64,000 bases of DNA from Bulleidia sp. zg-1006 (GTDB lineage Bacteria > Bacillota_I > Bacilli_A > Erysipelotrichales > Erysipelotrichaceae). Position numbers and translations under genes: made by a program. Below the pieces are notes generated by a model, which was not told the DNA's origin, ran no database searches, and worked only from the letters and a program-made list of their open reading frames with translations. Positions 10,222-64,000 of this stretch are shown in pieces. How positions within the stretch are numbered: position 1 is the stretch's first letter; each line of letters starts with the position of its first letter. The stretch is taken from contig NZ_CP069178.1 in the NCBI RefSeq assembly GCF_016812035.1, forward strand, positions 1,054,001-1,118,000, given 5' to 3'.

Positions 10222-10401
10222 TTAGTCTTTTTCGGAAATTGCTTCGACTGGGCAAACGGGAATGCATGAGAAACAAGAAATACAGGTGTTTTCATCGCAT
10301 TCGGATTTTCCATCTTCATCTAAGCTTAAAGCTCCTACGGGGCAAGTGTCAACACAAGCTCCACAACCAATACAAGTATCTTTATCAACTGTCACCGGCA
10401 T
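10222..10401 (-). CDS. 2[4Fe-4S] ferredoxin
   Basis: A 59-residue clostridial-type ferredoxin. It has two cluster motifs, CIGCGACVDTCPVGAL and CISCFSCIPVCPVEAI, each CX2CX2CX3CP, and an acidic surface. It is a cytosolic low-potential electron carrier. An upstream in-frame start exists at 10440, but AGGAGG lies directly before the ATG at 10401, fixing this start. The gene is monocistronic with its own terminator. It is a plausible electron partner for the Rnf complex encoded at 25-31 kb, whose RnfB lacks ferredoxin clusters; that link is inference. Confidence 0.93.
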   Translation of the reverse strand: MPVTVDKDTCIGCGACVDTCPVGALSLDEDGKSECDENTCISCFSCIPVCPVEAISEKD

Positions 10402-10472
10402 GAATAAATCCTCCTCGTAATTTGATTGTACAACTGACAAGCCATGTTAGAAAAGACTAACTTCTTACAAAA

Positions 10473-23303: not shown

Positions 23304-25160
23304 CTATTTTACTTTTTTTACGTATTTTGCCATTTCTTTTCCAGCTAATCCACCTGAAGATAAGGACGTACCAAATGCGGCTCCTTCATTATCATAGTAT
23401 GGCGTTGTGAATGCACTGCCTGCATCAACACCAGCTGCGTATAATCCTGGAATAGCTTTGAAATCAGCCTTGATAACACGAAGTTGATCATCCACCTTTA
23501 CACCACCAAGGGTTCCCCATGCACTAGATTGATATTGAAAGGCATAGAATGGACCTTTTGAAATGGGCGTCATAAAGTAAGAACTCTTATAGAACATGGT
23601 ATCTTTCTTATTAGTAGCCATCTTGTTATAAGTGTTTACTGTCTTTGTAAGATTAGGCATATTAACCTTCTTTGCCAGTTCTTCAATTGTGTCCGCTTTG
23701 AATGCCCAGCCTTGTTTGATTGCCTTATCTAACTGTTCACCTTTCGCTTTTAAAACCTTGCCTTTTTGGGTCATTTTACCAACATACCAGCCTTCCGGTT
23801 TACCTAAATATTCATAAACACCAACAGAACTCATACCATTTAAGTAATCTTGGTCAATAATGGAGTAGAAATAACCTTGGCGAAGTGTTTCTTCTCCACC
23901 GGCCAATGGTTTCGTTGCCATAATTTCTTCATTCATGAAACGATCACCATTACCATTTACTAATAAACCGCCATAGATAGCGTATTTAAGATTATCATTC
24001 TTTCGCCAGCCTTCACTCTTTTCATTTTCACCGGCAAATTCATTGAAGATAAGAGAGAAAGAATTCTTTTCCTCAACCCCACCGGCTTCTTTTGCCATAG
24101 CAAGACCATCGCCGGTACTTAATGTACTACCCAATGGAACAACACCAACATGACCAAATTTCTCTGCTAAAAGCTTTTTATTACCAAGGTATCCACCAGT
24201 CGACAATAAAACCGCTTTAGCTTTCACTTCAACCGGTGCTCCAGTGGATGTTTTTCCCTTAATACCGGTCACAATACCCTTATCATTTAGTACAACATGC
24301 TCTCCAGTTGTATTAAATAAGAATTTTCCACCTTGTTTTTCAACATAGTTTTGAATGAACTTAAAACGACCTTCTCCCTTTTCTTCTAACTTCAAGCGAG
24401 CACGGAAACCGGCACCGTAGTTATCCGGACGAAGTGTAGCCTTCAAACCCATCTTCACCATATCATCAATCAGTGGTCCACCTTCTTCAACGACTTTCTT
24501 CAACAATAAAGCGTTGACTGTTCCCCTAGACCAAGCATATTGTTTCTTAAATAATGTTTCCACGGAAACTTCTTGCTTTTCAGCAGCTTGTACTTTATTA
24601 GAAGCCGTTGCAGGACCACCGGCAATTGCTCCATTACTAAAGCCAATAGATGATGCCTTTTCTACCACCAATACTTTCACCCCTGCTTGCGTTGCACGCA
24701 AAGCGGCCGATAAGCCGGCCGCACCTGCTCCAACAATAACAATATCCGCTTCGTATTTTTGCGTTTCTTTCTTCGTGGCTGATTGCTTTCCGGTAAATGT
24801 ATCATCAGAACCGCCAGCTTGTTTTACAGTATCCTTAACCGCATTAATAATCGCATTGCTTGTTATAGTAGCACCAGAAACAGTATCCACCTCTACTGAT
24901 TGTTTCTTAACAATTTCTTCCGGAATTTTCTTTAATGCTCCGGCAGCGATATCCGGAGTTTCTTGTTGCTGTTTTACCTTAACGGATTTAATGGATGATG
25001 TATCAAATTCAACTTCCACCGTAACATTTCCATTCTTGCCCTTGGCAGATGCTGAGTAAGTACCTGCTTTTAGGCTTACAGATGCTTTTTTACTAGTGCA
25101 AGCCACAAGAAGTGTCGCAACCAGAAAGGTTGTAAGCACACGTTTAAAACCGTTCTTCAT
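23304..25160 (-). CDS. Lipoprotein flavoreductase, FMN-binding plus FAD domains, non-fumarate type
   Basis: A 618-residue surface lipoprotein (lipobox LVAC). Residues about 30-115 form an FMN_bind domain with the ApbE target VDTVSGATITS. From about 135 follows a FAD-binding reductase domain (VIVGAGAAGLSAAL). Compared with soluble fumarate reductases, the active-site histidine and arginine segments are replaced: AWGTLGG instead of HHTMGG, and EGAAFGTSLSSGG instead of HGxNRLGGN. The substrate is therefore unlikely to be fumarate. It lies downstream of the Rnf operon with its own promoter region and is probably fed electrons from extracytosolic flavins. Confidence 0.88.
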   Translation of the reverse strand: MKNGFKRVLTTFLVATLLVACTSKKASVSLKAGTYSASAKGKNGNVTVEVEFDTSSIKSVKVKQQQETPDIAAGALKKIPEEIVKKQSVEVDTVSGATITSNAIINAVKDTVKQAGGSDDTFTGKQSATKKETQKYEADIVIVGAGAAGLSAALRATQAGVKVLVVEKASSIGFSNGAIAGGPATASNKVQAAEKQEVSVETLFKKQYAWSRGTVNALLLKKVVEEGGPLIDDMVKMGLKATLRPDNYGAGFRARLKLEEKGEGRFKFIQNYVEKQGGKFLFNTTGEHVVLNDKGIVTGIKGKTSTGAPVEVKAKAVLLSTGGYLGNKKLLAEKFGHVGVVPLGSTLSTGDGLAMAKEAGGVEEKNSFSLIFNEFAGENEKSEGWRKNDNLKYAIYGGLLVNGNGDRFMNEEIMATKPLAGGEETLRQGYFYSIIDQDYLNGMSSVGVYEYLGKPEGWYVGKMTQKGKVLKAKGEQLDKAIKQGWAFKADTIEELAKKVNMPNLTKTVNTYNKMATNKKDTMFYKSSYFMTPISKGPFYAFQYQSSAWGTLGGVKVDDQLRVIKADFKAIPGLYAAGVDAGSAFTTPYYDNEGAAFGTSLSSGGLAGKEMAKYVKKVK

Positions 25161-25388: not shown

Positions 25389-25667
25389 CTACTTATTTTC
25401 TGCTAAATATTGCTTAATCGCTTCCTTTTGAGTTGGATTAGATGGACGACAACGACTTACATCAATTTCTCCATTCACCAACATTTGTGCCATCGCATCA
25501 CAACCGGGCGTTCCACATGCTCCACAATTTAAACCTGGAAGAAGAGCCCGAACATCCTCTACCCGTGTATCCACTTCAACCGCAAACTTCTTTGAAGCAA
25601 AAGATAAGATGACTCCTATTAAAGCTCCTAAAACAATCATCGAAACCGTTGGATAAACAAATTCCAT
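25389..25667 (-). CDS. rnfB: Truncated RnfB: membrane anchor and single Fe-S motif
   Basis: A 92-residue protein. Residues about 1-25 form one membrane helix, and residues 40-80 the RnfB Fe-S domain, LPGLNCGACGTPGC followed by DVSRCRP (CX2CX4C plus a distal Cys). Ordinary RnfB continues into a 2[4Fe-4S] ferredoxin domain and is about 180 to 330 residues; here the frame stops with TAG followed by a terminator, and no cysteine motif follows in that frame. It is the last gene of the operon, with GAAGGTAAG overlapping the end of the upstream gene. Probably functional rather than broken, since the end is clean. Confidence 0.88.
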   Translation of the reverse strand: MEFVYPTVSMIVLGALIGVILSFASKKFAVEVDTRVEDVRALLPGLNCGACGTPGCDAMAQMLVNGEIDVSRCRPSNPTQKEAIKQYLAENK

Positions 25668-25668
25668 A

Positions 25669-25863
25669 TTACTTACCTTCCTCTACCTTATTCTCTTTGT
25701 ATAAATTTCGTATTTCACAATCCAACAAACCACAAGCTTCACAATCCGGCTTCATATTTTCACAATCCTTTGGAACGGGTGTTTTACGATTAGCCCTTAA
25801 TAGCCAAACATTCAAAGCCACTAATCCAACTGCGATTGAAGCGGTAATCATTCCTGCCGGCAT
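25669..25863 (-). CDS. Small membrane protein with a CX6CX2CX4C motif, in the Rnf operon
   Basis: A 64-residue protein I cannot assign to a named family. Residues 4-24 form one membrane helix, followed by a basic stop-transfer (RANRK) and then Cys34, Cys41, Cys44 and Cys49 in the order CX6CX2CX4C. The CX2CX4C part has the same spacing as in RnfB, so a [4Fe-4S] cluster is possible. Its ATG overlaps the rnfA stop (TAATG) and its stop is two bases from rnfB, so it is made in step with the complex. A longer start at 25914 lies inside rnfA and is less likely. I infer an accessory Rnf subunit. Confidence 0.75.
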   Translation of the reverse strand: MPAGMITASIAVGLVALNVWLLRANRKTPVPKDCENMKPDCEACGLLDCEIRNLYKENKVEEGK

Positions 25864-26435
25864 TAAACTAAACCTGCCAAAGCCGAGAACGCAACTGCCA
25901 TAATAGCTGCACAAATCATGGCGATTGGATTGCCTTGGAATGCCTTTGGTACATCATTTTGTTGAAGACGGGTACGAATAGTTGAGAAAATCAGTAACAT
26001 CAACGCAAAGCCGGATGGAATCGCAATCGAATTGACCATGGTATGCACTAAATCATATGCTTGGCTAATGTTATTTTGCGCCACATATAAAACGGCACAG
26101 TTCGTTGTAATCAAAGGAAGATAGATACCTAAGCTCTTATACAAAGATGGTGCACTCTTCTTAATAAACAATTCCACAAATTGAACAAAGGCGGCGATTA
26201 ATAAGATAAAAGTAATCAATTCCATGTATTCAATATGAAGTGGAACTAATACATAATGATAAATCGTCCAAGAAATAATGGATGATCCAAAAATAACGAA
26301 GATAACCGCAACACCCATTCCTAAAGCCGATTCCATCTTAGTTGAAACACCCATAAAAGGACACATACCCAAGAATTTCGTTAGGATGATATTGTTGATA
26401 AATAAACCACTAATCAATAAAGTAAATAAGTCCAT
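25863..26435 (-). CDS. rnfA: Rnf complex subunit A
   Basis: A 190-residue integral membrane protein with six helices. It carries the family start ISGLFINNIILTKFLGMCPFMG, whose cysteine helps ligate the intramembrane [2Fe-2S] cluster shared with RnfE, and a second inverted copy around TTNCAVLYVA. With RnfE it forms the electron and ion pathway through the membrane. Three bases separate it from rnfE. Confidence 0.95.
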   Translation of the reverse strand: MDLFTLLISGLFINNIILTKFLGMCPFMGVSTKMESALGMGVAVIFVIFGSSIISWTIYHYVLVPLHIEYMELITFILLIAAFVQFVELFIKKSAPSLYKSLGIYLPLITTNCAVLYVAQNNISQAYDLVHTMVNSIAIPSGFALMLLIFSTIRTRLQQNDVPKAFQGNPIAMICAAIMAVAFSALAGLV

Positions 26436-26437
26436 AT

Positions 26438-27094
26438 TTATTTACCTCTCTTTTCTTGTAGAGTTAACTTATTTTTATAGTTGGCAACTAATGCCGCTAG
26501 ACAAGCAAAGGTGATAAATGCCCCAAACTGTTCCGTAAATAATGGAATCTCAAATCCGGTCGGAATCAATTGAAGATTAAAAATCAACCGGTCATTAAAT
26601 GGATTGCTTAACGATAAAGCACCCGTTCCAACAATTTGGCGAATGAAAGCCATACACAATAAAGCACCTGTATAAGCCAAGCCCATTTGGAAACCATCTT
26701 TAATAGAATCAACGACATTATTCTTACAAGCAAAGGCTTCGGCACGACCTAAAATAATACAGTTTACTGTAATTAAGTCTAAGAAAGCCCCTAAAGCTGT
26801 AAATAAAGTTGGTGTAAATGCGTGCATCAACATCGATAACACCGTTACTAAAGTCGCAATAATCGTGATGTAGACAGGAATATGAATATCATCGGGAGTA
26901 ATATTACGAACCAATGATACCAACATATTGGATAACACTAACACAAAGATAACACCAATACCCATACCAAGCGCATTATTCAAACTCGTGGAAATCGCTA
27001 ATACTGAACACAAGCCAAGATACATGCTAAATACAGGGTTATCGCTAATTAAACGACCGAAGAATCCTTGTTTTTTAACTTGTTTTTCACTCAT
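26438..27094 (-). CDS. rnfE: Rnf complex subunit E
   Basis: A 218-residue integral membrane protein homologous to RnfA but inverted in topology. It begins ISDNPVFSMYLGLCSVLAIS, with the cluster-ligand cysteine, and has a second motif around LITVNCIILGRAEAFA. GGAGGG precedes its ATG; that leader lies within the 351-bp repeat that also covers the end of rnfG. Confidence 0.95.
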   Translation of the reverse strand: MSEKQVKKQGFFGRLISDNPVFSMYLGLCSVLAISTSLNNALGMGIGVIFVLVLSNMLVSLVRNITPDDIHIPVYITIIATLVTVLSMLMHAFTPTLFTALGAFLDLITVNCIILGRAEAFACKNNVVDSIKDGFQMGLAYTGALLCMAFIRQIVGTGALSLSNPFNDRLIFNLQLIPTGFEIPLFTEQFGAFITFACLAALVANYKNKLTLQEKRGK

Positions 27095-27441
27095 AATCCC
27101 TCCTATTTACTTGCCTCTTGTAAAGCTTTATAAACCATTGCCTTTAACGCATTGGAGCTAAGGGTCGCTCCACTTGTGGCATCAATCGTTGAATCCATTG
27201 TCGCCGCTTCATATTTCTTTAGCTCTGTTGCTTCCGTTGCCTTATCGCCAACCCCTTCTGTATCCCCGAAGGAATCCACAACAACATTCTTTACTTTATT
27301 TCCTTCAAGCGTGATTGTTGCTTTTGAAACACCTTCAAAGCCTTTGGCTTCACAAGCATACACTCCTTTACTCTTCTTTGTACACTTCGCTTCATTACTA
27401 CTGAAATCACTATCCTTTAAAGCTTTGACTTTTGGCTTTTC
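27091..27441 (-). repeat. 351-bp direct repeat, copy 1 (3' end of rnfG)
   Basis: Matches 28002-28352 with only two substitutions that I can see. It covers the last third of rnfG (an FMN-binding domain), its stop codon, and the Shine-Dalgarno and first base of the next start codon. The copies are 911 bp apart in the same orientation. Confidence 0.95.
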
Positions 27442-28005
27442 AGCTTCCTTCGGCTTCGCATTTGGATCATAACGAATGCCCTTAGCTTCATTAAAGACTG
27501 CCTTGGCTGCGTTAAATCCATCACTAACACCTGCCGTCGTTACCGTTGCTCCGGAAATTAATTCCACTGAATCCTTAGAAGTTAATTTCTTCATCTTTTC
27601 AACATAGTCTGAATCAAAAGCCTTTGAACCCTTACCTTTGGTTTCATTTTCTTCAATAGCACTATACCCGGCAACCGTCCCATCGTTATTAAAGCCAACA
27701 ATAAAAGTAAAACCATCCGCATTATAGCCTTTTACTTTTAAAGTGAAGGCTAAACCTTTATCTTTTGCTTCATAAACACCTGTGATTAAACCCGTTTTAT
27801 CCTTAGCCAAATATTGCGAACTCACATCTGAAAACGTAGCACCTGACCAAATTTTTTCTAAAGTAGACTTAACCGACGCAATCGCATTTTCCGCAATCTT
27901 TGGTGCAGTTAGCGCATTGATAAGTGATAACACAAAGCCACATATAGCACACAAGGCTACTAATAGGACTGTCTTATAAACACTTGAAAACTCTTTTTTC
28001 TTCAT
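27103..28005 (-). CDS. rnfG: Rnf complex subunit G with a second C-terminal FMN-binding domain
   Basis: A 300-residue protein with one N-terminal membrane helix. Residues about 50-180 are the normal extracytoplasmic FMN-binding domain, with attachment site VELISGATVTT. Residues about 190-300 add a further FMN_bind domain with the site IDATSGATLSS, joined by a linker carrying two cysteines (KCTKK and YACEA). Normal RnfG is about 180-210 residues and has one flavin. Both threonines are expected ApbE targets. The added domain differs from the one on RnfD in two residues. Confidence 0.93.
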   Translation of the reverse strand: MKKKEFSSVYKTVLLVALCAICGFVLSLINALTAPKIAENAIASVKSTLEKIWSGATFSDVSSQYLAKDKTGLITGVYEAKDKGLAFTLKVKGYNADGFTFIVGFNNDGTVAGYSAIEENETKGKGSKAFDSDYVEKMKKLTSKDSVELISGATVTTAGVSDGFNAAKAVFNEAKGIRYDPNAKPKEAEKPKVKALKDSDFSSNEAKCTKKSKGVYACEAKGFEGVSKATITLEGNKVKNVVVDSFGDTEGVGDKATEATELKKYEAATMDSTIDATSGATLSSNALKAMVYKALQEASK

Positions 28006-28352
28006 AATCCCTCCTATTTACTTGCCTCTTGTAAAGCTTTATAAACCATTGCCTTTAACGCATTGGAGGTAAGGGTCGCTCCACTTGTGGCATCAATCGT
28101 TGAATCCATTGTCACCGCTTCATATTTCTTTAGCTCTGTTGCTTCCGTTGCCTTATCGCCAACCCCTTCTGTATCCCCGAAGGAATCCACAACAACATTC
28201 TTTACTTTATTTCCTTCAAGCGTGATTGTTGCTTTTGAAACACCTTCAAAGCCTTTGGCTTCACAAGCATACACTCCTTTACTCTTCTTTGTACACTTCG
28301 CTTCATTACTACTGAAATCACTATCCTTTAAAGCTTTGACTTTTGGCTTTTC
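28002..28352 (-). repeat. 351-bp direct repeat, copy 2 (3' end of rnfD)
   Basis: Second copy of the 27091-27441 repeat. The two differences visible change Ala to Val and Ser to Thr in the encoded domain. Like copy 1 it extends through the stop codon into the ribosome binding site of the next gene. Confidence 0.95.
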
Positions 28353-29444
28353 CGAAGTCTTTGCTTGCTCAGCTTTTACTTCCTTCGCTTGTAAATTAGC
28401 TCCCACTAAAACCGGAACCACCAAACAAACACAAAGCACAATCGCTGTATTACGCCAAATACGCTTGAAATCCTTTACTTGACTACCATCCACCATCTTA
28501 TCAATCGCAGGTGTTAACATATTCATCAATAAAATTGAGAACAAAGCACCATCTGGTAAATTGGCTTTCCAACGAATCAATAAAGTCAAAGCTGCAGCCC
28601 CAAAGGCGAACACATACTTACCGGCCGGACTAACTGGTGAAGTCACAGGATCTGTCAACATAAACACAGCCCCAAACACAACACCACCACCTAAGACATT
28701 TACAATCGCAAATTCAAGTGCATTGCCATGAAATAAACCGGTGATAAAACTCATCCCAAAAACCGCTGCTAAATAAGTACAAGTCAAACGCCAATCAATA
28801 GCTTTACGGTAAATCAAATAGGCACCAACCAACAAAATACATAGAGCAAAACTAGCACCGATTGTACTGTAATAATTTCCTAATAATAAACCGGTTAAGC
28901 CATTGAATTGATTTAGTACCGAATCCAATGCAGAACCACTAATGACCCAACCATGACTAGCCATGGTAGACATTGGTGTTGCCCCCGTTGTGAAATCCGT
29001 CGCTACACTTGCCCCAAAAGAATTCATGATAATGGCTTCCGCAAAAGCTGCGGGATTAAAAATATTTTGGCCAAAACCGCCAAAGATTAGCTTACCAAAT
29101 AAAACCGCAATAACAGTCGCAATAATCAATGCGTAACAGCTCACATTGATACGCGTGATTAAGGCAATAATCAAAGCTGTAATCCAAACATAAGAATGTT
29201 TCAAAGACAAGCAAACATCCTTCTTCATCACTTTGAAATAAACTGCTTCCGTTAAAAAGGCACTCACACAAGTAGTGATGGTCATGAAACCAATTCGTAA
29301 GCTATAATTCCAACCACTATTAAGACCATACCAAACCATCGCATAGATAAGAACAACAAATAAGCCAAGACTGACATCCATCATAATGCCATCAATTGAA
29401 CGCTTTGCTCGATAGTTAGGAGCTGAATGAAATGAGAACTTCAT
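28014..29444 (-). CDS. rnfD: Rnf complex subunit D fused to an extra FMN-binding domain
   Basis: A 476-residue protein. Residues about 1-345 are a normal RnfD with about ten membrane helices and its own covalent-FMN site TTGATPMST near residue 157. After the last helix and a short charged linker (EVKAEQAKTSEKP), residues about 368-476 are an FMN_bind domain with site IDATSGATLTS, almost identical to that on RnfG. Normal RnfD ends near 310-350 residues. The extra domain should lie outside the membrane and add a flavin relay. Confidence 0.93.
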   Translation of the reverse strand: MKFSFHSAPNYRAKRSIDGIMMDVSLGLFVVLIYAMVWYGLNSGWNYSLRIGFMTITTCVSAFLTEAVYFKVMKKDVCLSLKHSYVWITALIIALITRINVSCYALIIATVIAVLFGKLIFGGFGQNIFNPAAFAEAIIMNSFGASVATDFTTGATPMSTMASHGWVISGSALDSVLNQFNGLTGLLLGNYYSTIGASFALCILLVGAYLIYRKAIDWRLTCTYLAAVFGMSFITGLFHGNALEFAIVNVLGGGVVFGAVFMLTDPVTSPVSPAGKYVFAFGAAALTLLIRWKANLPDGALFSILLMNMLTPAIDKMVDGSQVKDFKRIWRNTAIVLCVCLVVPVLVGANLQAKEVKAEQAKTSEKPKVKALKDSDFSSNEAKCTKKSKGVYACEAKGFEGVSKATITLEGNKVKNVVVDSFGDTEGVGDKATEATELKKYEAVTMDSTIDATSGATLTSNALKAMVYKALQEASK

Positions 29445-29447
29445 AAT

Positions 29448-30767
29448 CTATTTACCTCCCTTAGCCGTTTGAGCAGCCTTCATCTTAGCTCCAACAAAAG
29501 TCTTCGCACGACGCATCTTTTCCGTTACATCAATCTTAGAAGGACAAACATAGGTGCATAATCCACATTCAATACAATCCATCGCTCTTAGCTTCACTAG
29601 GTGAGCATAATCCACTACTTTATGTTCATCAGCAATACGAACCGGTTCTAAACCCATTGGACAATGATCCACACAAGCACCACATCTCAAACAGTTAACA
29701 GCATCGACTTTGACATGTTTCATAACCGTTACACCATTGGTACTTTGTGAAATAGTCCATTGATCATTCGGTACAACACGACCCATCATCGGTCCACCAT
29801 TAATCAATAAAACATCTTCAATGCCATCTTTCACACCACCAGCCACTTTTAATAATTCACCTGAAGTTGTTCCCACCGGTGCATACATAGTTTGTGGATT
29901 TTTAACGGCATCCCCGGAAACCGTCACATACTTATGGGTAATAGGCATACCCGTTACTAAGGCTTTCCCTAAAGCAATGGCAGTATTCGCATTATTGATG
30001 ATTAAACCAATTTCACTTGGTAAACGATCATAATTCTTCTTTGTTAGTTGATAAGCTAATGTTCTTTCATAACCCATTGGATACACGTCCGGAACGGCCT
30101 TGATTTCAACATTTGTTCCGGCAAATGTCTCTTTCAGTTTAGCAATCATGGCTTTCTTATTTTCTTTAATTGCAAGTACCACCTTAGCCGCTTTAGATAA
30201 TTTACCAAGGGCTAAAACACCTAACTTTAAATCATCCATATTTTCTTCCATAGCTTTGTAGTCAGCTGTTAAGAAAGGTTCACATTCAACTGCATTAATC
30301 ACTAACATTTCAATGCCATCCACTTTAGTGTATTTCACATACGTTGGAAAGCCGGCACCACCAAGACCCAAAACTCCCGCATTTTTAACGAAGTCCAGTA
30401 ATTCCTCACGGCTTGCTTTCGTGTAATCAAGAGGCTGGAATGCTTGGGCAGATTCATTTTTATGGTTGTTCACAATATGCAAATGATTGTGCAGACGACC
30501 ATCCCCTGCTAACATTTTCTTTTCTTCTGTCACTGTACCAGACACCGGTGAGAATACCGGCAGGTAGAAATGATTATTTCTTTCCGCCAACTTTGTACCA
30601 ATTTTTACTTCCGATCCAATTTCAACACAAACAGTCATGTCTGATGGACCACTGGCGATCGGCACCCATACATCATTAGGGTCAATCGAGTGATTAACAT
30701 CTACAGATGTCGTTAAATCTTTATGGCCATCCAAATGTCTTTTCATAGGCCCTTTAAAAATCGACAT
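29448..30767 (-). CDS. rnfC: Rnf complex subunit C
   Basis: A 439-residue peripheral subunit on the cytoplasmic side. A barrel-sandwich N-terminus is followed by the NADH/FMN-binding region with LGLGGAGFPTYVK and NAVECEPFLTADY, an SLBB-like segment, and two [4Fe-4S] motifs, CLRCGACVDHCP and CIECGLCTYVCP, near 375-420. It exchanges electrons with NAD(H). First gene of rnfC-D-G-E-A-(Cys4 gene)-B. No strong Shine-Dalgarno is visible. The divergent apbE gene starts about 90 bp upstream. Confidence 0.95.
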   Translation of the reverse strand: MSIFKGPMKRHLDGHKDLTTSVDVNHSIDPNDVWVPIASGPSDMTVCVEIGSEVKIGTKLAERNNHFYLPVFSPVSGTVTEEKKMLAGDGRLHNHLHIVNNHKNESAQAFQPLDYTKASREELLDFVKNAGVLGLGGAGFPTYVKYTKVDGIEMLVINAVECEPFLTADYKAMEENMDDLKLGVLALGKLSKAAKVVLAIKENKKAMIAKLKETFAGTNVEIKAVPDVYPMGYERTLAYQLTKKNYDRLPSEIGLIINNANTAIALGKALVTGMPITHKYVTVSGDAVKNPQTMYAPVGTTSGELLKVAGGVKDGIEDVLLINGGPMMGRVVPNDQWTISQSTNGVTVMKHVKVDAVNCLRCGACVDHCPMGLEPVRIADEHKVVDYAHLVKLRAMDCIECGLCTYVCPSKIDVTEKMRRAKTFVGAKMKAAQTAKGGK

Positions 30768-30847: not shown

Positions 30848-30860
30848 ACACTGATTGCGT

Positions 30861-31982
30861 ATGAAAAAAATTTCTAAAAAAATGCTTATCGCCCTCTTAA
30901 GTGTCACCCTGTTCAGTGCTTGTTCCGAAACAAAAATCACAAGCTACAAAAATGTCAGCTATGACTCCGGTTTTGATACCTCGTATGCTTATCTTGAAAA
31001 TACCAAGAAAACGGAAGCAGAGGCTAAGAAAAATTTCATTGAAAGCAGCAAGCTTCTAAAACATTACAATGAACTCTTCGATATTTATCGTAGCTATAGT
31101 GGTATCCATAATCTAAAAACCATCAATGACCAAGCTGGTAAAAAACCGGTTCAAGTTGAACAAGAAATCATTGATTTATTAAAAGAAGCGAAGAAGATGT
31201 ACGACTTATCCAAGGGTGAATTTGATGTTACCATGGGGGCTACTTTAAAACTTTGGCATCAATACCGAGAAGAAGGAATGGCTCTTAATCAGAAAAAGAA
31301 AAGGGGCAATCTGCCAAGTAAAGCTGAATTAGAAGCAACGAAGTCCCATCGTGGTTGGGATAAAATCCAAATTGATGAAGAAAAGAAAACGGTCTTTATC
31401 ACGGATCCAAAAGTTAGTTTGGATGTTGGTGGTATTGCGAAGGGTTATGCGAGTGAACTGGTAGCGAAAGAATTGGAAAAGCGTGGTGTCCACTCCGGTT
31501 ATGTGAATGTTGGTAGAAACATTCGTACCATTGGTTCAAAACCAAATAACGAAGCTTGGTCCATTGGTATCACCGATCCGGAAGGTAAACTACCGGGTGG
31601 TTTATTAGCTTATAAGAAACAAGGTAATTTCTCCTTTGTGACATCGGGAGATTATGAACGTTATTACATAGCAAGCGATGGTAAAACTTATTCCCATATC
31701 ATCGATCCAAAAACCTTATTCCCGGCCAATAAATATCGTTCTGTAACCGTATTAACAGCTGACTCCGGTTTGGCTGATGCAATGAGTACAAGCTTATTTA
31801 CTCTAAGCATTGAAGATGGAAAGAAACTAATTGAAAAAATCAAACAAGAAAGCGGACAAGAAATAAATGCAGTTTGGGTTATGAACCCCGATAAAGTTCA
31901 AGATAAGAATTACACCATGGTAGACCAATACGCGATTTCTTATACCGATGGATTAAAAGACCAATTAACTTTCAACCAATAA
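30861..31982 (+). CDS. apbE: FMN:protein transferase, lipoprotein
   Basis: A 373-residue lipoprotein (lipobox FSAC). It transfers FMN from FAD to the threonine of (S/T)GA(T/S) motifs on extracytoplasmic proteins. The family signatures FDVTMGATLKLW, SLDVGGIAKGYA, SGYVNVGRNIR and the metal-site segment GLADAMSTSLF are present. Targets in this window include RnfG (two sites), RnfD (two sites) and three flavoreductases. It is divergent from the Rnf operon. A TTG six bases further upstream is an alternative start. Confidence 0.95.
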   Translation: MKKISKKMLIALLSVTLFSACSETKITSYKNVSYDSGFDTSYAYLENTKKTEAEAKKNFIESSKLLKHYNELFDIYRSYSGIHNLKTINDQAGKKPVQVEQEIIDLLKEAKKMYDLSKGEFDVTMGATLKLWHQYREEGMALNQKKKRGNLPSKAELEATKSHRGWDKIQIDEEKKTVFITDPKVSLDVGGIAKGYASELVAKELEKRGVHSGYVNVGRNIRTIGSKPNNEAWSIGITDPEGKLPGGLLAYKKQGNFSFVTSGDYERYYIASDGKTYSHIIDPKTLFPANKYRSVTVLTADSGLADAMSTSLFTLSIEDGKKLIEKIKQESGQEINAVWVMNPDKVQDKNYTMVDQYAISYTDGLKDQLTFNQ

Positions 31983-32033: not shown

Positions 32034-34013
32034 TTACTTATGATCAGCCACTAAGGTATCCGATACAAGCTTACCAAAGACAACTGTATCCACAACAGCG
32101 TTACCGCCTAAGCGGTTTCCACCATGAATACCGCCGGTTACTTCACCGGCCGCGTATAAATTCGCAATCGGCTTCTTCGCTTCATTCAATACACGACCCT
32201 TTGTATCAATTGTGATACCACCCATTGTATGATGGATACAAGCTTGCCTGGAAGTCGCAACCCATGGTCCCTTAGTTAGTTTTGTTGTATAAAGTGTTCG
32301 ACCAAACTCATCTTTTCCAGAATCCACAGAAGCGTTGAATTGATCCACACTAGCCTTTAAGGCAGCCGGATCCATCTTTAACTTCTTAGCCAATTCTTCT
32401 AAAGTATCCGCGGATACAACATAACCATTTTCTTCCAGATACTTGAAAGTAAAGCCATCGGCTGAACGCCAATTTGGATCTTTAATATCTTTATAACCGG
32501 GTCCATCTGCTGATTCCACAATATAGAACATAGCATCTTTTTGTTTCAAAACATTCAAACAAATTTCATCACGACGACCATCTTCACGAACAAATCTCTT
32601 ACCTTCTTTATTCACGAAAAGAATTTGGTCTGTTCCCGAAGCTGCACGAGCCGGATATTTCGTTAATTGTCCATCTTTTGTATTTCCTAAGTACAAGAGT
32701 TGGATTTGTTCCATATCGGTCAAAGAAGCACCGGCCTCTTTCGCCATCACAATACCATCACCCTGAGAAGAAGAGAAACGATTGGTTGATGCTGTCTTGC
32801 TTAAATCTTGCCATTTACCGGACTTGTTATATTCCTGAACCATCTTCGCATTCGCCGCAAAACCGCCTGTTGCTAAAACAACACCGTCTTTCGCTTCGAC
32901 TTTGAATTCCTTCTTTGTATGATTATCCACAACCACAGCCCCAACAGCCTTACCATCTTTCATAATTAACTTAGAGGCTTTCGCTTCATTGATGAAGCTA
33001 ATCTTATCTTTTAAGCTATCCAATTGTTTTGCATAAACAGACATAAAGCCTGTTCCCATAGGCATCGTTGAAGTGTGCGTTCTTTGCCATAAAGAACCTG
33101 CACCTTGACTAATACTATCCTTGAACGTCATACCCATTTTTTGAATCCAAGCCATACCACCATACGATTGGTAACATAATACTTTCACCAATTCAAGATT
33201 AGCGACTTTATCACCATTAATCCAAGTTTGTAAAGCATACCATTCTTTCGTATCAAACAAGCCTTTTTGCCCACTTGATTTATAGGTATTCCATTGCTTT
33301 TGAACCTCTGCTTGTAATGCCTTATGGGCTTCATTCACCGGTTTTTCACTAAGTGCTTTTTCAATCGTTGTTTTAACTGTTGCACTCATCTTTACCTTGG
33401 ATTGCATAGCTGGATCGGGAGCATTATAAATTGCTCCACAGACTAATGTATCGCCACCAATAGCCCCTGCTTTTTCGATAATAACAACTTTTTTACCTTT
33501 TTGAGCGGCACCGATGGCCGCCGCCAAACCGGCACCACCGCCACCTAATACAGCCACATCAGCGGAAACATCCTTACGAGCTTCATAATTTACTGTCTTC
33601 TTGAAAGAATCCGGGTTTCCGCCGGCATCTTTGATTGCCTTTTCAACCCCACGAACAATCGCCGCTGAAGTAATCGTTGCCCCTGTCACATTATCCACTT
33701 TTAAGCTTTGATTTTTTACAATCTCTTGGGGAATCAATTCCACTGGGGCAACACCGCCTGCTCGCATCACTTGACCTTTACTATCTTTCAATTCACCACC
33801 AATACCAGGTGTTTCCGAGTGCTTTGTTACTTTAACACTCTTAATCCTTGTTTCATCTACTTCTACCGAGACTTCAACCTTATCATTCATACCCATTTCA
33901 CTAACGGTATACGTGCCGGCTTTCATCTTTGAAGAAGTAGTGCTACCCTTTGAACAACCAAACATGGACGTCGCAAGTAGTACAGATAATAAAGTCTTGC
34001 TCACTTTCTTCAT
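32034..34013 (-). CDS. Lipoprotein fumarate-reductase-type flavoprotein (FMN plus FAD)
   Basis: A 659-residue surface lipoprotein with signal and MFGCSK lipobox region. An FMN_bind domain (about 30-125) has the site VDNVTGATITS and an unusual 20-residue insert after ETPGIGG. The FAD domain (VAVLGGGGAGLAAAIG) follows. The catalytic set of soluble fumarate reductases appears kept: ACIHHTMGGI, HGGNRLGGNAVVDT and the arginine-rich REDGRRDE segment. It may reduce fumarate or a related enoate outside the cell. Monocistronic. Confidence 0.88.
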   Translation of the reverse strand: MKKVSKTLLSVLLATSMFGCSKGSTTSSKMKAGTYTVSEMGMNDKVEVSVEVDETRIKSVKVTKHSETPGIGGELKDSKGQVMRAGGVAPVELIPQEIVKNQSLKVDNVTGATITSAAIVRGVEKAIKDAGGNPDSFKKTVNYEARKDVSADVAVLGGGGAGLAAAIGAAQKGKKVVIIEKAGAIGGDTLVCGAIYNAPDPAMQSKVKMSATVKTTIEKALSEKPVNEAHKALQAEVQKQWNTYKSSGQKGLFDTKEWYALQTWINGDKVANLELVKVLCYQSYGGMAWIQKMGMTFKDSISQGAGSLWQRTHTSTMPMGTGFMSVYAKQLDSLKDKISFINEAKASKLIMKDGKAVGAVVVDNHTKKEFKVEAKDGVVLATGGFAANAKMVQEYNKSGKWQDLSKTASTNRFSSSQGDGIVMAKEAGASLTDMEQIQLLYLGNTKDGQLTKYPARAASGTDQILFVNKEGKRFVREDGRRDEICLNVLKQKDAMFYIVESADGPGYKDIKDPNWRSADGFTFKYLEENGYVVSADTLEELAKKLKMDPAALKASVDQFNASVDSGKDEFGRTLYTTKLTKGPWVATSRQACIHHTMGGITIDTKGRVLNEAKKPIANLYAAGEVTGGIHGGNRLGGNAVVDTVVFGKLVSDTLVADHK

Positions 34014-59604: not shown

Positions 59605-62600
59605 TTACACTCTTTTTCTTCTCATGTAAGTCACACCTAGTCCTGCACTCGAAGCCAGTAACATCATGAGCAACAGTGTAATATTACTGCTATCTCCTGT
59701 TCTTGGTGAATGTGGATTCTTTGGTTCAGGATTATGAGGAGTCTTTGGTGTTGGATTCTTCACCGTATTGGTATCGTAATCATTTACTCCATCGTTGACT
59801 TTTGCTGTATTAGTAAGCGTTGCTCCGTTAACATCCTTATTTACCTTGACTGTGAACTTAACCGTCCAGCTTTCACCATTAGCTAGCTTCTTTGTCCACT
59901 TAACCATTCCGTTTTCATACTTGCCGTTGTTATCGGCAGATACGAATTCAGTATGCTTTGGTAGCTTATCGGTGATGGTTACATCACGCTCTTCTCCCGT
60001 CGTATTCTTGTAGGTAACGGCATAAGTCAGTTCTTGTCCAGGTTGGACTGCCTTACCGTCAATGTTGGTCGTTGTTCCACCTGTGAATACTTCTTTCTTA
60101 GGTTCAGTTGGTGTAGGGTTATGAGTTTCATTCGTATCATACTCATTTTCACCATCGTTTACCTTTGCCTTGTTATCGACAGGGGCTCCGTTCACGTCCT
60201 TGTCCACTTTGACGGTGAACTTAACCGTAACACTCTTGTCTTTGGCAACATCAGCTGTCCATGTGACTTTACCATTTTCATACTTGCCATTGTTATCAGC
60301 TGATACGAAGCTTGTATGAGCAGGGATGGTATCAGTGATGGTTGCTTTGACATCTTTACCTGTTGTGTTCTTGTAGGTAACGGCGTAAGTCAATTCTTGT
60401 CCAGGTTTCACTGCCTTACCGTCAATGTTGGTAGTCGTTCCACCTGTGAATACTTCTTTCTTAGGTTCAGTTGGTGTTGGATTATGAGTTTCATTCGTAT
60501 CATACTCATTTTCACCATCGTTTACCTTAGCTTTGTTATCGACAGGGGCTCCGTTCACGTCCTTGTCCACTTTGACGGTGAACTTAACGGTAACACTCTT
60601 GTTTTTAGCAACATCCGCTGTCCATGTCACCTTACCATTTGCGTATTGTCCACCATTCTCTGCTGATACGAAGCTGGTATGTGCTGGGATAGTGTCAGTG
60701 ATGGTTGCTTTAACATCTTTACCTGTTGTGTTCTTGTAGGTAATGGCGTAAGTCAGTTCTTGTCCGGGGTTGACCTTCTTACCATCAATGTTGGTTGTTG
60801 TACCACCTGTGAATACTTCTTTCTTAGGTGGGACATGGGTATTGGTGATGGTAAAGCCATCTTTTGCGTTTCCTTGCATACTGATGTCATAAAGTGGCAT
60901 CTTTTCTTCTTCTACGGTGTACTTTATCTCATTTCCGTTCTTATACTTTTCAAGGTTGGTGAAGGTATGTTGCCAATGGTTAGCCTTATTCAGAGTAACA
61001 CCGGCTACTTTCTGACCGTCTGCTAAAAGATGAACGGTTGCTGAAGTTCCTTCTTTTCCTACCCATTTCTTGGTAACCGGTACGGATACTTTACCTGTAA
61101 TGGTATTGGTAATGGTAAAGCCTGATTCTGCTGTACCACTCCTACCTGAGATATATCCCTCTATACTTACTTCTTCAATATCATACTCAATCTTATTTCC
61201 ATCCTTATCATACTTTGGAAGGTCTTTAAAGGTATGTTTCCAAGAATTCGCTTTACTTAGAGTGGCGGTAGCTTTTTCTACACCTCCTGCCTTTAGTTTT
61301 ACAACAACTGAATCTTTTGCAGGTCCTACCCACTGCTTCGTTACCGAAACGGATACCTTTTCTACATTGGTGTTGGTAATCGTAAAACCTGTCTTTGCGT
61401 TTCCTGTGATGACAGTCTGATAGCCCTTTAACTTATCTTCTTTAACGGTATAGGTGATTACTTTACCCTTATCGTCATACTTTGGACGACCACTAAATGT
61501 CCACTGCCATTTATTCGATTCATTCAAATCCTTAAAGGCTACTTCTTTACCATTCGCAAGTAGTCCTACTCTTACCTTATCCTCTTTTTTACCATTCCAA
61601 ACCTTTTTAACCGGAATGTTTACTTTCTCTACATTCTTATTGGTAATGGTAAAGCCATTCTTTGCGTCCCCTGTTGTTTTACTTTCATAGTTAGGGATGG
61701 CGACTTCTTTGACATCGTACTCGATTTCTTTCCCGTCGATATTGTGTTTATCTAGGTTCTTGAAGCTGCCTTGCCATTTTTCAGCTTTTGTAAGAGTAAG
61801 GGTTTTGCCTGTATCTTTTCCATCTGCCAATAGTTTTACGGTGACAGTGTCTTTTTCAGGTCCTACCCACTGCTTCGTTACCTTAACTTCTACCTTTTCT
61901 CCCTTTGGATTATTGTACATAGCTACATAGGCTCCGCTTCCTTGGTTGGTTAGTGTGATGACCTTTGAGTTGGCGGAAGTAGGGTTTTGTGTACTGTTTG
62001 GTTTCGCATCATTGATTGTTACATCTTCGTAGCCTTTTGGATGGGCTGTTTCGACAAAGCGGTATTTTCCGACATTCAGTTTTTTAATCTGAATGGTTCC
62101 TTTATCATTTGGAGTTAAGGTCTTATCAGTATTTAATTTACCTTGCTCAACCATATCCGATTTTACATCTACTTTAGTCCAAGTTTTACCGCCATCTTTT
62201 GTGGTCTGTAGTTTAAACTTAAAGCCTTGTGATAGGGTTGCACCTGTTTTTCTATCTGACTTGACCAGTTTTACAGTTAGCGGGTCAGCTGGTGCGTCGG
62301 CAATACCGGCTGGTGGGGTTAAAACACCTGTTGCTTTCACTTCTTTGTTACCAAGTTGCTTGGTACTGATTGTTGCAGTGTTTGGAATTTCTGTTCTTTC
62401 TTTTACAGGAACGTATCTCGCATGAAAATCCATATACAGATTCTGAACGATTTTCCCCTTGTATATATTATTAATCTTATTGATAGTTGATGCTTTAAGC
62501 TTGCTATACACATCATGGGTTTTCTTTAAATAATTTCCGACACCACCAGCGGCTTTAATTGATGGAATATCATCATATTTAGGAGCATTTCCATCATTCA

Positions 62601-64000
62601 TATCCCACCATTTAAGCATAAGTGTATAGGTACCGTCTTTATTATCATAGATACAATATTCACCCTTTTTAAGTGAGGTTTTAATTTGCGTTTTCGTTTT
62701 ATTTCCTTGTTCTATTTTTTTCAAAATAGACGGTAAATTTACTGGATAGCTACCAGAAACTACTTTCCCTTTATCGTCTATACCTGAAATCCACACATTT
62801 ACTGATTTCAGAGTAGGACTTTCCACGCAATCAATAAATGTATCTTCCATGTATACATCCGTCAGTGTCTTTGGTGAATATTCCCCATTATGTTCTAATA
62901 AATATGAATTAAAAAAGTGGTGTTCTTTTCCATCAATATTTTTTCTGATGTAATCAGACATTAGTCCAAATCGCCAAACAATATGAGAGTCACTCGCTGC
63001 TGGTGCAGACTTATAAACTGTTTGCCATGTCTCATTGTTATTCTGTGATACTACATACTCTTTTTCTCTACCTACTACAAGATCTTCTTTCCCAAGTTTA
63101 CCGATTTGTGTTTTTCTTTCTCCTAAATGAAATGTTTTTCCACCATCAATCAGATATGCTTTCATTTCTCCCGTTTCAAAAGAGGCAGTAAAACTCTTTA
63201 CTTGTTGGTTTTTAATGTAATCGCCACTGAACTTAATTTCAATCTTTCCGTCTTTATATTCCCAAGTGCCTATCTCATGCTTTGTTCCATCCAACAAAGG
63301 TTTTTTGGCAAAATTTTGCTTTTCATGTCCTGCAAATGCCGGAATAGTAAGGGTATCTCCAACTAAGATTGGTTTTTGAGCCGTATAAGTCATCGATAAT
63401 TTCAACTTAAAGTTACTATTTTTTTGTCCCTCACAAAAAGCATTACTAAACTTAGACGGGTCTTTCTTATATGCTTCATACTCTGAACTATCACTTGTTC
63501 TGTAATCAATCTTCTTATTCCCATTTGCGACATCAATGATTTCAAAAGATTTGATGGTTACATTGTCAAGGCTAAGGGGTCCGGGTCCTGCCGGTGCGTC
63601 GGCGTTCTTCTTCTCATAGCCTGCAACGATGGTTTTATCCACCACTTTTCCATAGAGTGTGGATTTTTCACCATTTTTTCCTGTGCCGTAAGTTGTATTT
63701 GAAATGGTTACGTCATCTGTACGAAGTGTTGTGGATAAGTCTTTGACATCATTATTTTTAATGTAGTCTCCTGAAAATTTTAAAATAAATTTTCCTTTGT
63801 TATAAACATAAGTACCAATTTCGTCGCCTGTGCCATATCTTATAGGCTTAGCTGTAGAGGTGGCATTTTTAAATTCATCCCCTAAGTAAGCTGGAATTTC
63901 AAGCGTCTCGCCATCCTTAATCGCTGTTTTTGCGGAGAGGTTGACTGCAAGTTTTAAAGATAGTTTAGAAACTTTTTGGTCTTTTCCGACAGGTTGCGTA
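59605..64000 (-). CDS. Large sortase-anchored adhesin with Cna-B and DUF11-type repeats (5' end outside window)
   Basis: An open frame of at least 1464 residues, continuing past the window. From N to C: two related adhesive modules (each ending near KFSGDYIKN), a collagen-adhesin-like region, one prealbumin-like domain (LTVKLVKSDRKTGATL), four Cna-B domains (about 61900 down to 60840) with the usual Lys, Glu and ITN residues for isopeptide bonds, three 121-residue DUF11-type repeats, a proline-rich spacer and a sorting signal SPRTGD, membrane helix and RRKRV tail. The SPRTG motif departs from LPXTG. A surface adhesin or pilin-like stalk. Confidence 0.93.
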   Translation of the reverse strand, partial: TQPVGKDQKVSKLSLKLAVNLSAKTAIKDGETLEIPAYLGDEFKNATSTAKPIRYGTGDEIGTYVYNKGKFILKFSGDYIKNNDVKDLSTTLRTDDVTISNTTYGTGKNGEKSTLYGKVVDKTIVAGYEKKNADAPAGPGPLSLDNVTIKSFEIIDVANGNKKIDYRTSDSSEYEAYKKDPSKFSNAFCEGQKNSNFKLKLSMTYTAQKPILVGDTLTIPAFAGHEKQNFAKKPLLDGTKHEIGTWEYKDGKIEIKFSGDYIKNQQVKSFTASFETGEMKAYLIDGGKTFHLGERKTQIGKLGKEDLVVGREKEYVVSQNNNETWQTVYKSAPAASDSHIVWRFGLMSDYIRKNIDGKEHHFFNSYLLEHNGEYSPKTLTDVYMEDTFIDCVESPTLKSVNVWISGIDDKGKVVSGSYPVNLPSILKKIEQGNKTKTQIKTSLKKGEYCIYDNKDGTYTLMLKWWDMNDGNAPKYDDIPSIKAAGGVGNYLKKTHDVYSKLKASTINKINNIYKGKIVQNLYMDFHARYVPVKERTEIPNTATISTKQLGNKEVKATGVLTPPAGIADAPADPLTVKLVKSDRKTGATLSQGFKFKLQTTKDGGKTWTKVDVKSDMVEQGKLNTDKTLTPNDKGTIQIKKLNVGKYRFVETAHPKGYEDVTINDAKPNSTQNPTSANSKVITLTNQGSGAYVAMYNNPKGEKVEVKVTKQWVGPEKDTVTVKLLADGKDTGKTLTLTKAEKWQGSFKNLDKHNIDGKEIEYDVKEVAIPNYESKTTGDAKNGFTITNKNVEKVNIPVKKVWNGKKEDKVRVGLLANGKEVAFKDLNESNKWQWTFSGRPKYDDKGKVITYTVKEDKLKGYQTVITGNAKTGFTITNTNVEKVSVSVTKQWVGPAKDSVVVKLKAGGVEKATATLSKANSWKHTFKDLPKYDKDGNKIEYDIEEVSIEGYISGRSGTAESGFTITNTITGKVSVPVTKKWVGKEGTSATVHLLADGQKVAGVTLNKANHWQHTFTNLEKYKNGNEIKYTVEEEKMPLYDISMQGNAKDGFTITNTHVPPKKEVFTGGTTTNIDGKKVNPGQELTYAITYKNTTGKDVKATITDTIPAHTSFVSAENGGQYANGKVTWTADVAKNKSVTVKFTVKVDKDVNGAPVDNKAKVNDGENEYDTNETHNPTPTEPKKEVFTGGTTTNIDGKAVKPGQELTYAVTYKNTTGKDVKATITDTIPAHTSFVSADNNGKYENGKVTWTADVAKDKSVTVKFTVKVDKDVNGAPVDNKAKVNDGENEYDTNETHNPTPTEPKKEVFTGGTTTNIDGKAVQPGQELTYAVTYKNTTGEERDVTITDKLPKHTEFVSADNNGKYENGMVKWTKKLANGESWTVKFTVKVNKDVNGATLTNTAKVNDGVNDYDTNTVKNPTPKTPHNPEPKNPHSPRTGDSSNITLLLMMLLASSAGLGVTYMRRKRV
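59739..60830 (-). repeat. Three tandem 363-bp repeats in the adhesin gene
   Basis: Equivalent bases recur at 60061, 60424 and 60787, a period of exactly 363 bp (121 codons). The first two units in translation order are nearly identical over most of their length; the last diverges after ITYKNTTG-type sequence. Unequal crossing-over could change copy number without breaking the frame. Confidence 0.9.

Follow-up and report, generated by a model that had tools for sequence, protein, structure and literature searches.

In a large branch of the Bacilli, the Rnf complex has lost most of its electron-input subunit RnfB; nearly all of these genomes also encode a small Cys-rich membrane protein, often within the rnf operon, which probably helps to build or feed the Fe-S centres of the complex. 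The arrangement was analyzed from the window, a stretch of 64,000 nucleotides of Bulleidia sp. zg-1006 (family Erysipelotrichaceae), whose genome comprises 1.545 Mb in one contig. Here rnfC, rnfD, rnfG, rnfE, rnfA and rnfB all lie in one operon (25389-30767), in the order known from Clostridia (CDGEAB), and thus provide the six subunits that define an Rnf; a gene for a protein of 64 residues is inserted between the last two (Table 1).

Table 1. Genes of the rnf locus and related genes in the window.
Feature	Position	Strand	Remarks
FMN_bind + FAD_binding_2 flavoprotein reductase	23304..25160	(-)	downstream of rnfB
rnfB, minimal, 92 aa	25389..25667	(-)	helix and one PF04060 FeS domain (CX2CX4CX16C); no C-terminal polyferredoxin
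small gene, 64 aa	25672..25863	(-)	single helix, C-X6-C-X2-C-X4-C; stop codon 25669-25671
rnfA	25863..26435	(-)	[2Fe-2S] ligands C25 and C113, numbered as in A. woodii (PMC11889175)
rnfE	26438..27094	(-)	C29 and C112 match A. woodii ligands C25 and C108 (PMC11889175)
rnfG	27103..28005	(-)	two FMN_bind domains, SGAT motifs
rnfD	28014..29444	(-)	additional FMN_bind domain at C-terminus
rnfC	29448..30767	(-)	NADH/FMN site, two 4Fe-4S
apbE flavin transferase	30855..31982	(+)	divergent from rnfC
second FMN_bind + FAD_binding_2 reductase	32034..34013	(-)	beyond apbE
2[4Fe-4S] ferredoxin	10222..10402	(-)	likely soluble electron donor

The only Pfam match in the window RnfB is PF04060 (FeS), at residues 43-75, and the absence of any Fer4 domain bears out an earlier note on this DNA, which had described a protein of only 92 residues without the ferredoxin-like domain; with TIGR01944 it scores 64.3 bits, just below the cut-off of 68.7. 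A profile of the short RnfBs aligns to approximately residues 1-90 of solved RnfBs (174, 274 and 333 aa) and ends there. The A. woodii structure shows three parts of RnfB: a helix in the membrane, a mobile domain (B8) with one cluster, reaching the [2Fe-2S] of RnfA/E, and a cytosolic part with seven clusters, on which ferredoxin docks; RnfBs other than that of the window are reported to have 3-8 clusters (PMC11889175). The C-terminal multi-cluster docking domain is absent from the window protein, which ends after residue 92, and the system is a variant of Rnf, not a canonical one, with an RnfB that corresponds to the helix and B8 alone. A full-length RnfB broken here by a frameshift, as the earlier note had considered, is ruled out by equally short frames, free of frameshifts, in nearly all same-genus relatives and in most families. 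All four Cys ligands of the membrane [2Fe-2S] in A. woodii (RnfA C25/C113 and RnfE C25/C108; PMC11889175) have their counterparts in the window (RnfA C25/C113 and RnfE C29/C112), from which the transmembrane electron path looks intact. The window system thus resembles the Rnfs of A. woodii, C. tetanomorphum and A. vinelandii, for which structures are available, in its six subunits, its RnfA/E [2Fe-2S] ligands and the helix and single-cluster domain of RnfB, but differs from them in that RnfB stops after this domain (one cluster, against 3-8 elsewhere; PMC11889175), in the presence of the small Cys protein and in the additional FMN_bind domains of RnfD and RnfG.

Concerning these last domains, the second FMN_bind domain of rnfG (27083-27382) and the C-terminal one of rnfD (27994-28293) are 98% identical in DNA over 300 nt, the mark of a recent duplication or gene conversion by which RnfD appears to have gained a flavin-binding domain. 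The two FMN_bind + FAD_binding_2 reductases bracket the rnf/apbE cluster, and multi-flavinylated Rnf has been proposed to feed extracytosolic reductases (PMC8238504); together with apbE, the flanking reductases suggest that the window pump may also do so and reduce an acceptor outside the cytosol. At the input side, reduced ferredoxin is probably available to the pump, because the genome encodes a PFOR besides the 2[4Fe-4S] ferredoxin of the window. Further along (59605-63645), the window encodes a surface adhesin-like protein of 1346 aa with Cna_B repeats.

The small protein has one N-terminal helix followed by C34-X6-C41-X2-C44-X4-C49, exactly as had been read earlier from the sequence. Its start codon overlaps the rnfA stop codon as TAATG, also in accordance with that reading, although the gap between its own stop codon and the rnfB ATG is of one base (25668) and not of two. 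A dN/dS of 0.13 relative to Bulleidia extructa (0.08 for rnfB and 0.04 for rnfA), together with the conservation described below, rules out a chance reading frame. The average number of K/R residues is 0.4 before and 2.4 after the helix, and we infer from this positive-inside bias that the cysteines lie on the cytosolic side, where they would stand beside the contact between RnfA/E and RnfB. In the structure model (pLDDT 79.5, pTM 0.42), residues 2-27 form a helix and a second, short one follows at the C-terminal end, which does not suffice for a fold search. Among 80 named loci, the cysteines are spaced C-X6-C-X2-C-X4-C in 62 and C-X9-C-X2-C-X4-C in 9. An NxxTPxP-type juxtamembrane segment is also conserved, although the pattern used for scanning these loci (TPVP[EK]GCE) partly forces the invariance of TPVP and of the first Cys, the other three Cys lying outside the pattern. 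The most widely kept part of the protein is the CX2CXnC core and not the sequence of the helix.

Within the order, the small gene is conserved, as the earlier proposal demanded: a profile search detected it in 180 of 265 genomes and in 57 of 76 genera, short RnfB with the small gene directly upstream was seen in all 30 same-genus loci examined, and the order rnfA-small-rnfB(short) in 79 of the 80 named loci. RnfB was matched in 194 of the 265 genomes, 179 of which also have the small gene; the other 15 all have a long RnfB (frames of 260-298 aa), encoded directly after rnfA. In the small-positive genomes RnfB is short in every frame listed (all but about ten), with one exception. This genome (G031) carries a long-RnfB operon, the only rnf operon found in it, and an orphan small gene beside apbE (L165, G031:C6), probably the relic of a native operon lost by operon replacement. 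The RnfA tree groups the long-RnfB operons into a single clade (98/85, a single change), the in-operon presence of the small gene changes 4-5 times, and none of the 18 long-RnfB operon rows in the tree has the gene; the correlation of the small gene with short RnfB at the operon level thus amounts to a few events, not hundreds. The nearest named relative for the rnf locus is B. extructa, whose small protein is 80% identical to that of the window and whose strain W1219 shows rnfE-rnfA-small-rnfB at a contig end (L032); this contrasts with an account from 2025, based on B. extructa PP_925, in which the species has no respiratory complexes (PMC12786226).

In the class as a whole, 161 of 346 genomes, from 92 of 181 genera, gave a profile match for the small gene; Acholeplasmatales-like and further basal Bacilli are among them, and RnfB is short almost everywhere; outside the order, 51 of 55 further small-positive genomes have an RnfB and none of these is long. 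Linkage is looser at this scale. In five families (f4, f6, f17, f20 and f22) a short rnfB directly follows rnfA and the genome has its small gene at another site, which for f20 and part of f6 is shown in a same-genus genome or by profile match only. According to neighbours named by eye, the unlinked gene stands between a phosphoglucomutase-like gene (pgm) and ung (L237, L290, L292-L294) or adjoins a dCMP deaminase gene (L231, L295-L298). A strict rule by which short RnfB means an adjacent small gene therefore fails outside the order, where short rnfB operons without the gene occur. Copy numbers differ as well: genomes of family f14 have 2-3 short-RnfB rnf operons, of which a single one includes the small gene, and further copies of this gene occur near CsoR/CopA-like genes. 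Where f14 and f4 genomes possess a second or third rnf-like operon (L268-L276), it encodes a short RnfB but not the small protein. Orphan paralogues (L228-L243), often with three and not four Cys, have pyruvate dehydrogenase-like genes as neighbours or occur in copper-related surroundings of the CsoR/CopA-like kind.

The protein itself varies in the number (3-4) and spacing of its Cys and in length, the shortest forms having about 35 aa; outside the order, many members have only three Cys, and in family f12 forms of 35-40 aa with a helix and 3-4 Cys are encoded between rnfA and rnfB. Several genomes of family f9 encode an RnfB of 184-194 aa with two FeS domains; two loci (L233 and L246, in G306 and G314) encode tandem FeS domains in 184-187 aa, and in G306 rnfB is followed downstream by a second small Cys gene, adjoining a CsoR-like gene. 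Neither rnfA nor rnfB was found fused to the small gene, a long open frame in G406 being upstream read-through.

As regards relatedness, neither Pfam nor NCBIfam covers the small protein, and its profile had no match among solved structures. One of the closest likenesses is to the FeS domain of RnfB (hhalign 89%; score 34.1 against 27.8 for the best of 60 shuffles, and 22.8 against 16.1 for the soluble part alone), in agreement with the CX2CX4C spacing that the earlier note had seen in both proteins. Like RnfB, the small protein has a helix and then CX2CGX3C, but it has no match to PF04060 (CX2CX4CX16C), with which only CX2CX4C is common: the X16-C ligand is missing, and those members that have a fourth Cys carry it upstream. 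The cluster loop of endonuclease III is spaced C-X6-C-X2-C-X5-C, one residue off the dominant pattern, and its family PF10576 matched one member (E 0.046). A single helix and a Cys-rich tail are also found in the FeoB-associated membrane proteins of PF12669, to which 8 of 23 members showed weak similarity (best E 2.6e-4; hhalign 78%); membership of that family is nevertheless rejected, since Rnf-linked copies score 17.4 (G122) and 14.6 bits (G175) against a gathering cut-off of 27, and Cys pattern and gene context differ. NqrM (DUF539, PF04400; 66-75 aa), which is reported to mature the [2Fe-2S] of Na+-NQR (PMC12174285), shares with the small protein a similar length (about 65-75 aa), one N-terminal helix, a basic stop-transfer, four Cys and the link to a pump of the Nqr/Rnf family, but its Cys are spaced C-X11-C-X-C-X3-C. 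Homology between the two found no support: the hhalign probability was 15% in a comparison with five real, retrieved NqrM sequences, and the host genome has no PF04400 match. In the papers searched, neither a one-cluster RnfB nor the small Cys protein was described, an absence that is not proof.

Taking these data together, we lean slightly, and tentatively, towards the small protein being an Fe-S (or iron) assembly factor of a compact Rnf, analogous to NqrM, rather than a relay subunit; we infer its topology, its binding of a cluster or of iron and its role. RnfB is cut down to a helix and a single [4Fe-4S] domain (B8) docking on RnfA/E, and the small protein would be its dedicated partner, with three or four Cys on the cytosolic face. 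In the way that NqrM serves Na+-NQR, it would load or repair either the [2Fe-2S] of RnfA/E or the exposed cluster of RnfB. It would be made beside RnfA and RnfB where its gene is in the operon, and act in trans elsewhere. The genome-level association with short RnfB within and outside the order, the location of the gene outside the rnf operon in five families, the NqrM-like architecture and the [2Fe-2S] ligands kept in RnfA/E all argue in favor of this role, which would account for the unlinked genes, for copies being fewer than rnf operons, for the drift from four Cys to three and for the copper-linked paralogues (copper damages Fe-S clusters); the varying number and spacing of the Cys also suit transient binding better than a fixed relay. 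Against it stand the absence of NqrM homology, a position exactly between rnfA and rnfB that also fits a subunit, and the canonical long-RnfB Rnf without the small gene, whose absence an assembly role alone does not explain; descent might perhaps do so, since the long-RnfB operons form one clade. A fixed Fe-S relay does explain both the operon position and the absence of the gene with long RnfB. The small protein would then bind a cytosolic [4Fe-4S] and, with the single-cluster RnfB, replace the polyferredoxin as electron-input module, a possible but less probable role with which the coupling in 79 of 80 loci, the dominant spacing (62 of 80) close to that of the endonuclease III loop, the resemblance of CX2CGX3C to the RnfB FeS domain, higher than in any of 60 shuffles whether or not the helix is included, and the ferredoxin and PFOR present to donate electrons are all consistent. 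It is harder to reconcile with short RnfB operons lacking the gene in several families, with members of only three Cys and with copies outside rnf loci. The idea put forward in the earlier note, an extra Fe-S subunit replacing part of RnfB, is supported in part, by the conservation, placement, coupling, absence from long-RnfB operons and motif likeness of the small protein, whereas the five families, the multi-operon genomes, the varying Cys and the copper-gene paralogues speak against a strict replacement.

The helix and its juxtamembrane segment (partly subject to the search-pattern bias mentioned), as well as the reduced forms of 35-40 aa, which have few Cys and retain helix and gene position, would also suit a structural or regulatory subunit packing in the RnfA/E/B membrane region and stabilising the minimal RnfB, with Cys that bind zinc or are redox-inactive. 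We regard this as unlikely, the CX2CXnC core being more widely kept than the helix sequence. Marginally less likely still is a protein of the FeoB-associated Cys-rich type that handles metals in general and is tied to rnf by gene order alone: the weak PF12669 similarity and the paralogues near copper genes point that way, but the Rnf-linked members fall well under the cut-off, and the dependence on short RnfB holds at the genome level even when the gene is unlinked.

The solved Rnf structures feed ferredoxin electrons through an RnfB of 3-8 clusters; a branch of gut and oral Bacilli appears to use one cluster and a small protein. Nature thus provides a minimal system in which to study the access of ferredoxin to RnfA/E and the assembly of the unusual membrane [2Fe-2S] in Rnf, NqrM having been reported only for Nqr, and it gives a functional lead for a hypothetical protein found in hundreds of genomes. 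Should the relay role hold, which we consider conceivable but doubtful, much of the basal Bacilli would possess a distinct Rnf subtype in which an RnfB with one cluster and a separate Fe-S subunit with one helix divide the input module between them, and no Rnf/Nqr pump would be known to have a smaller one.
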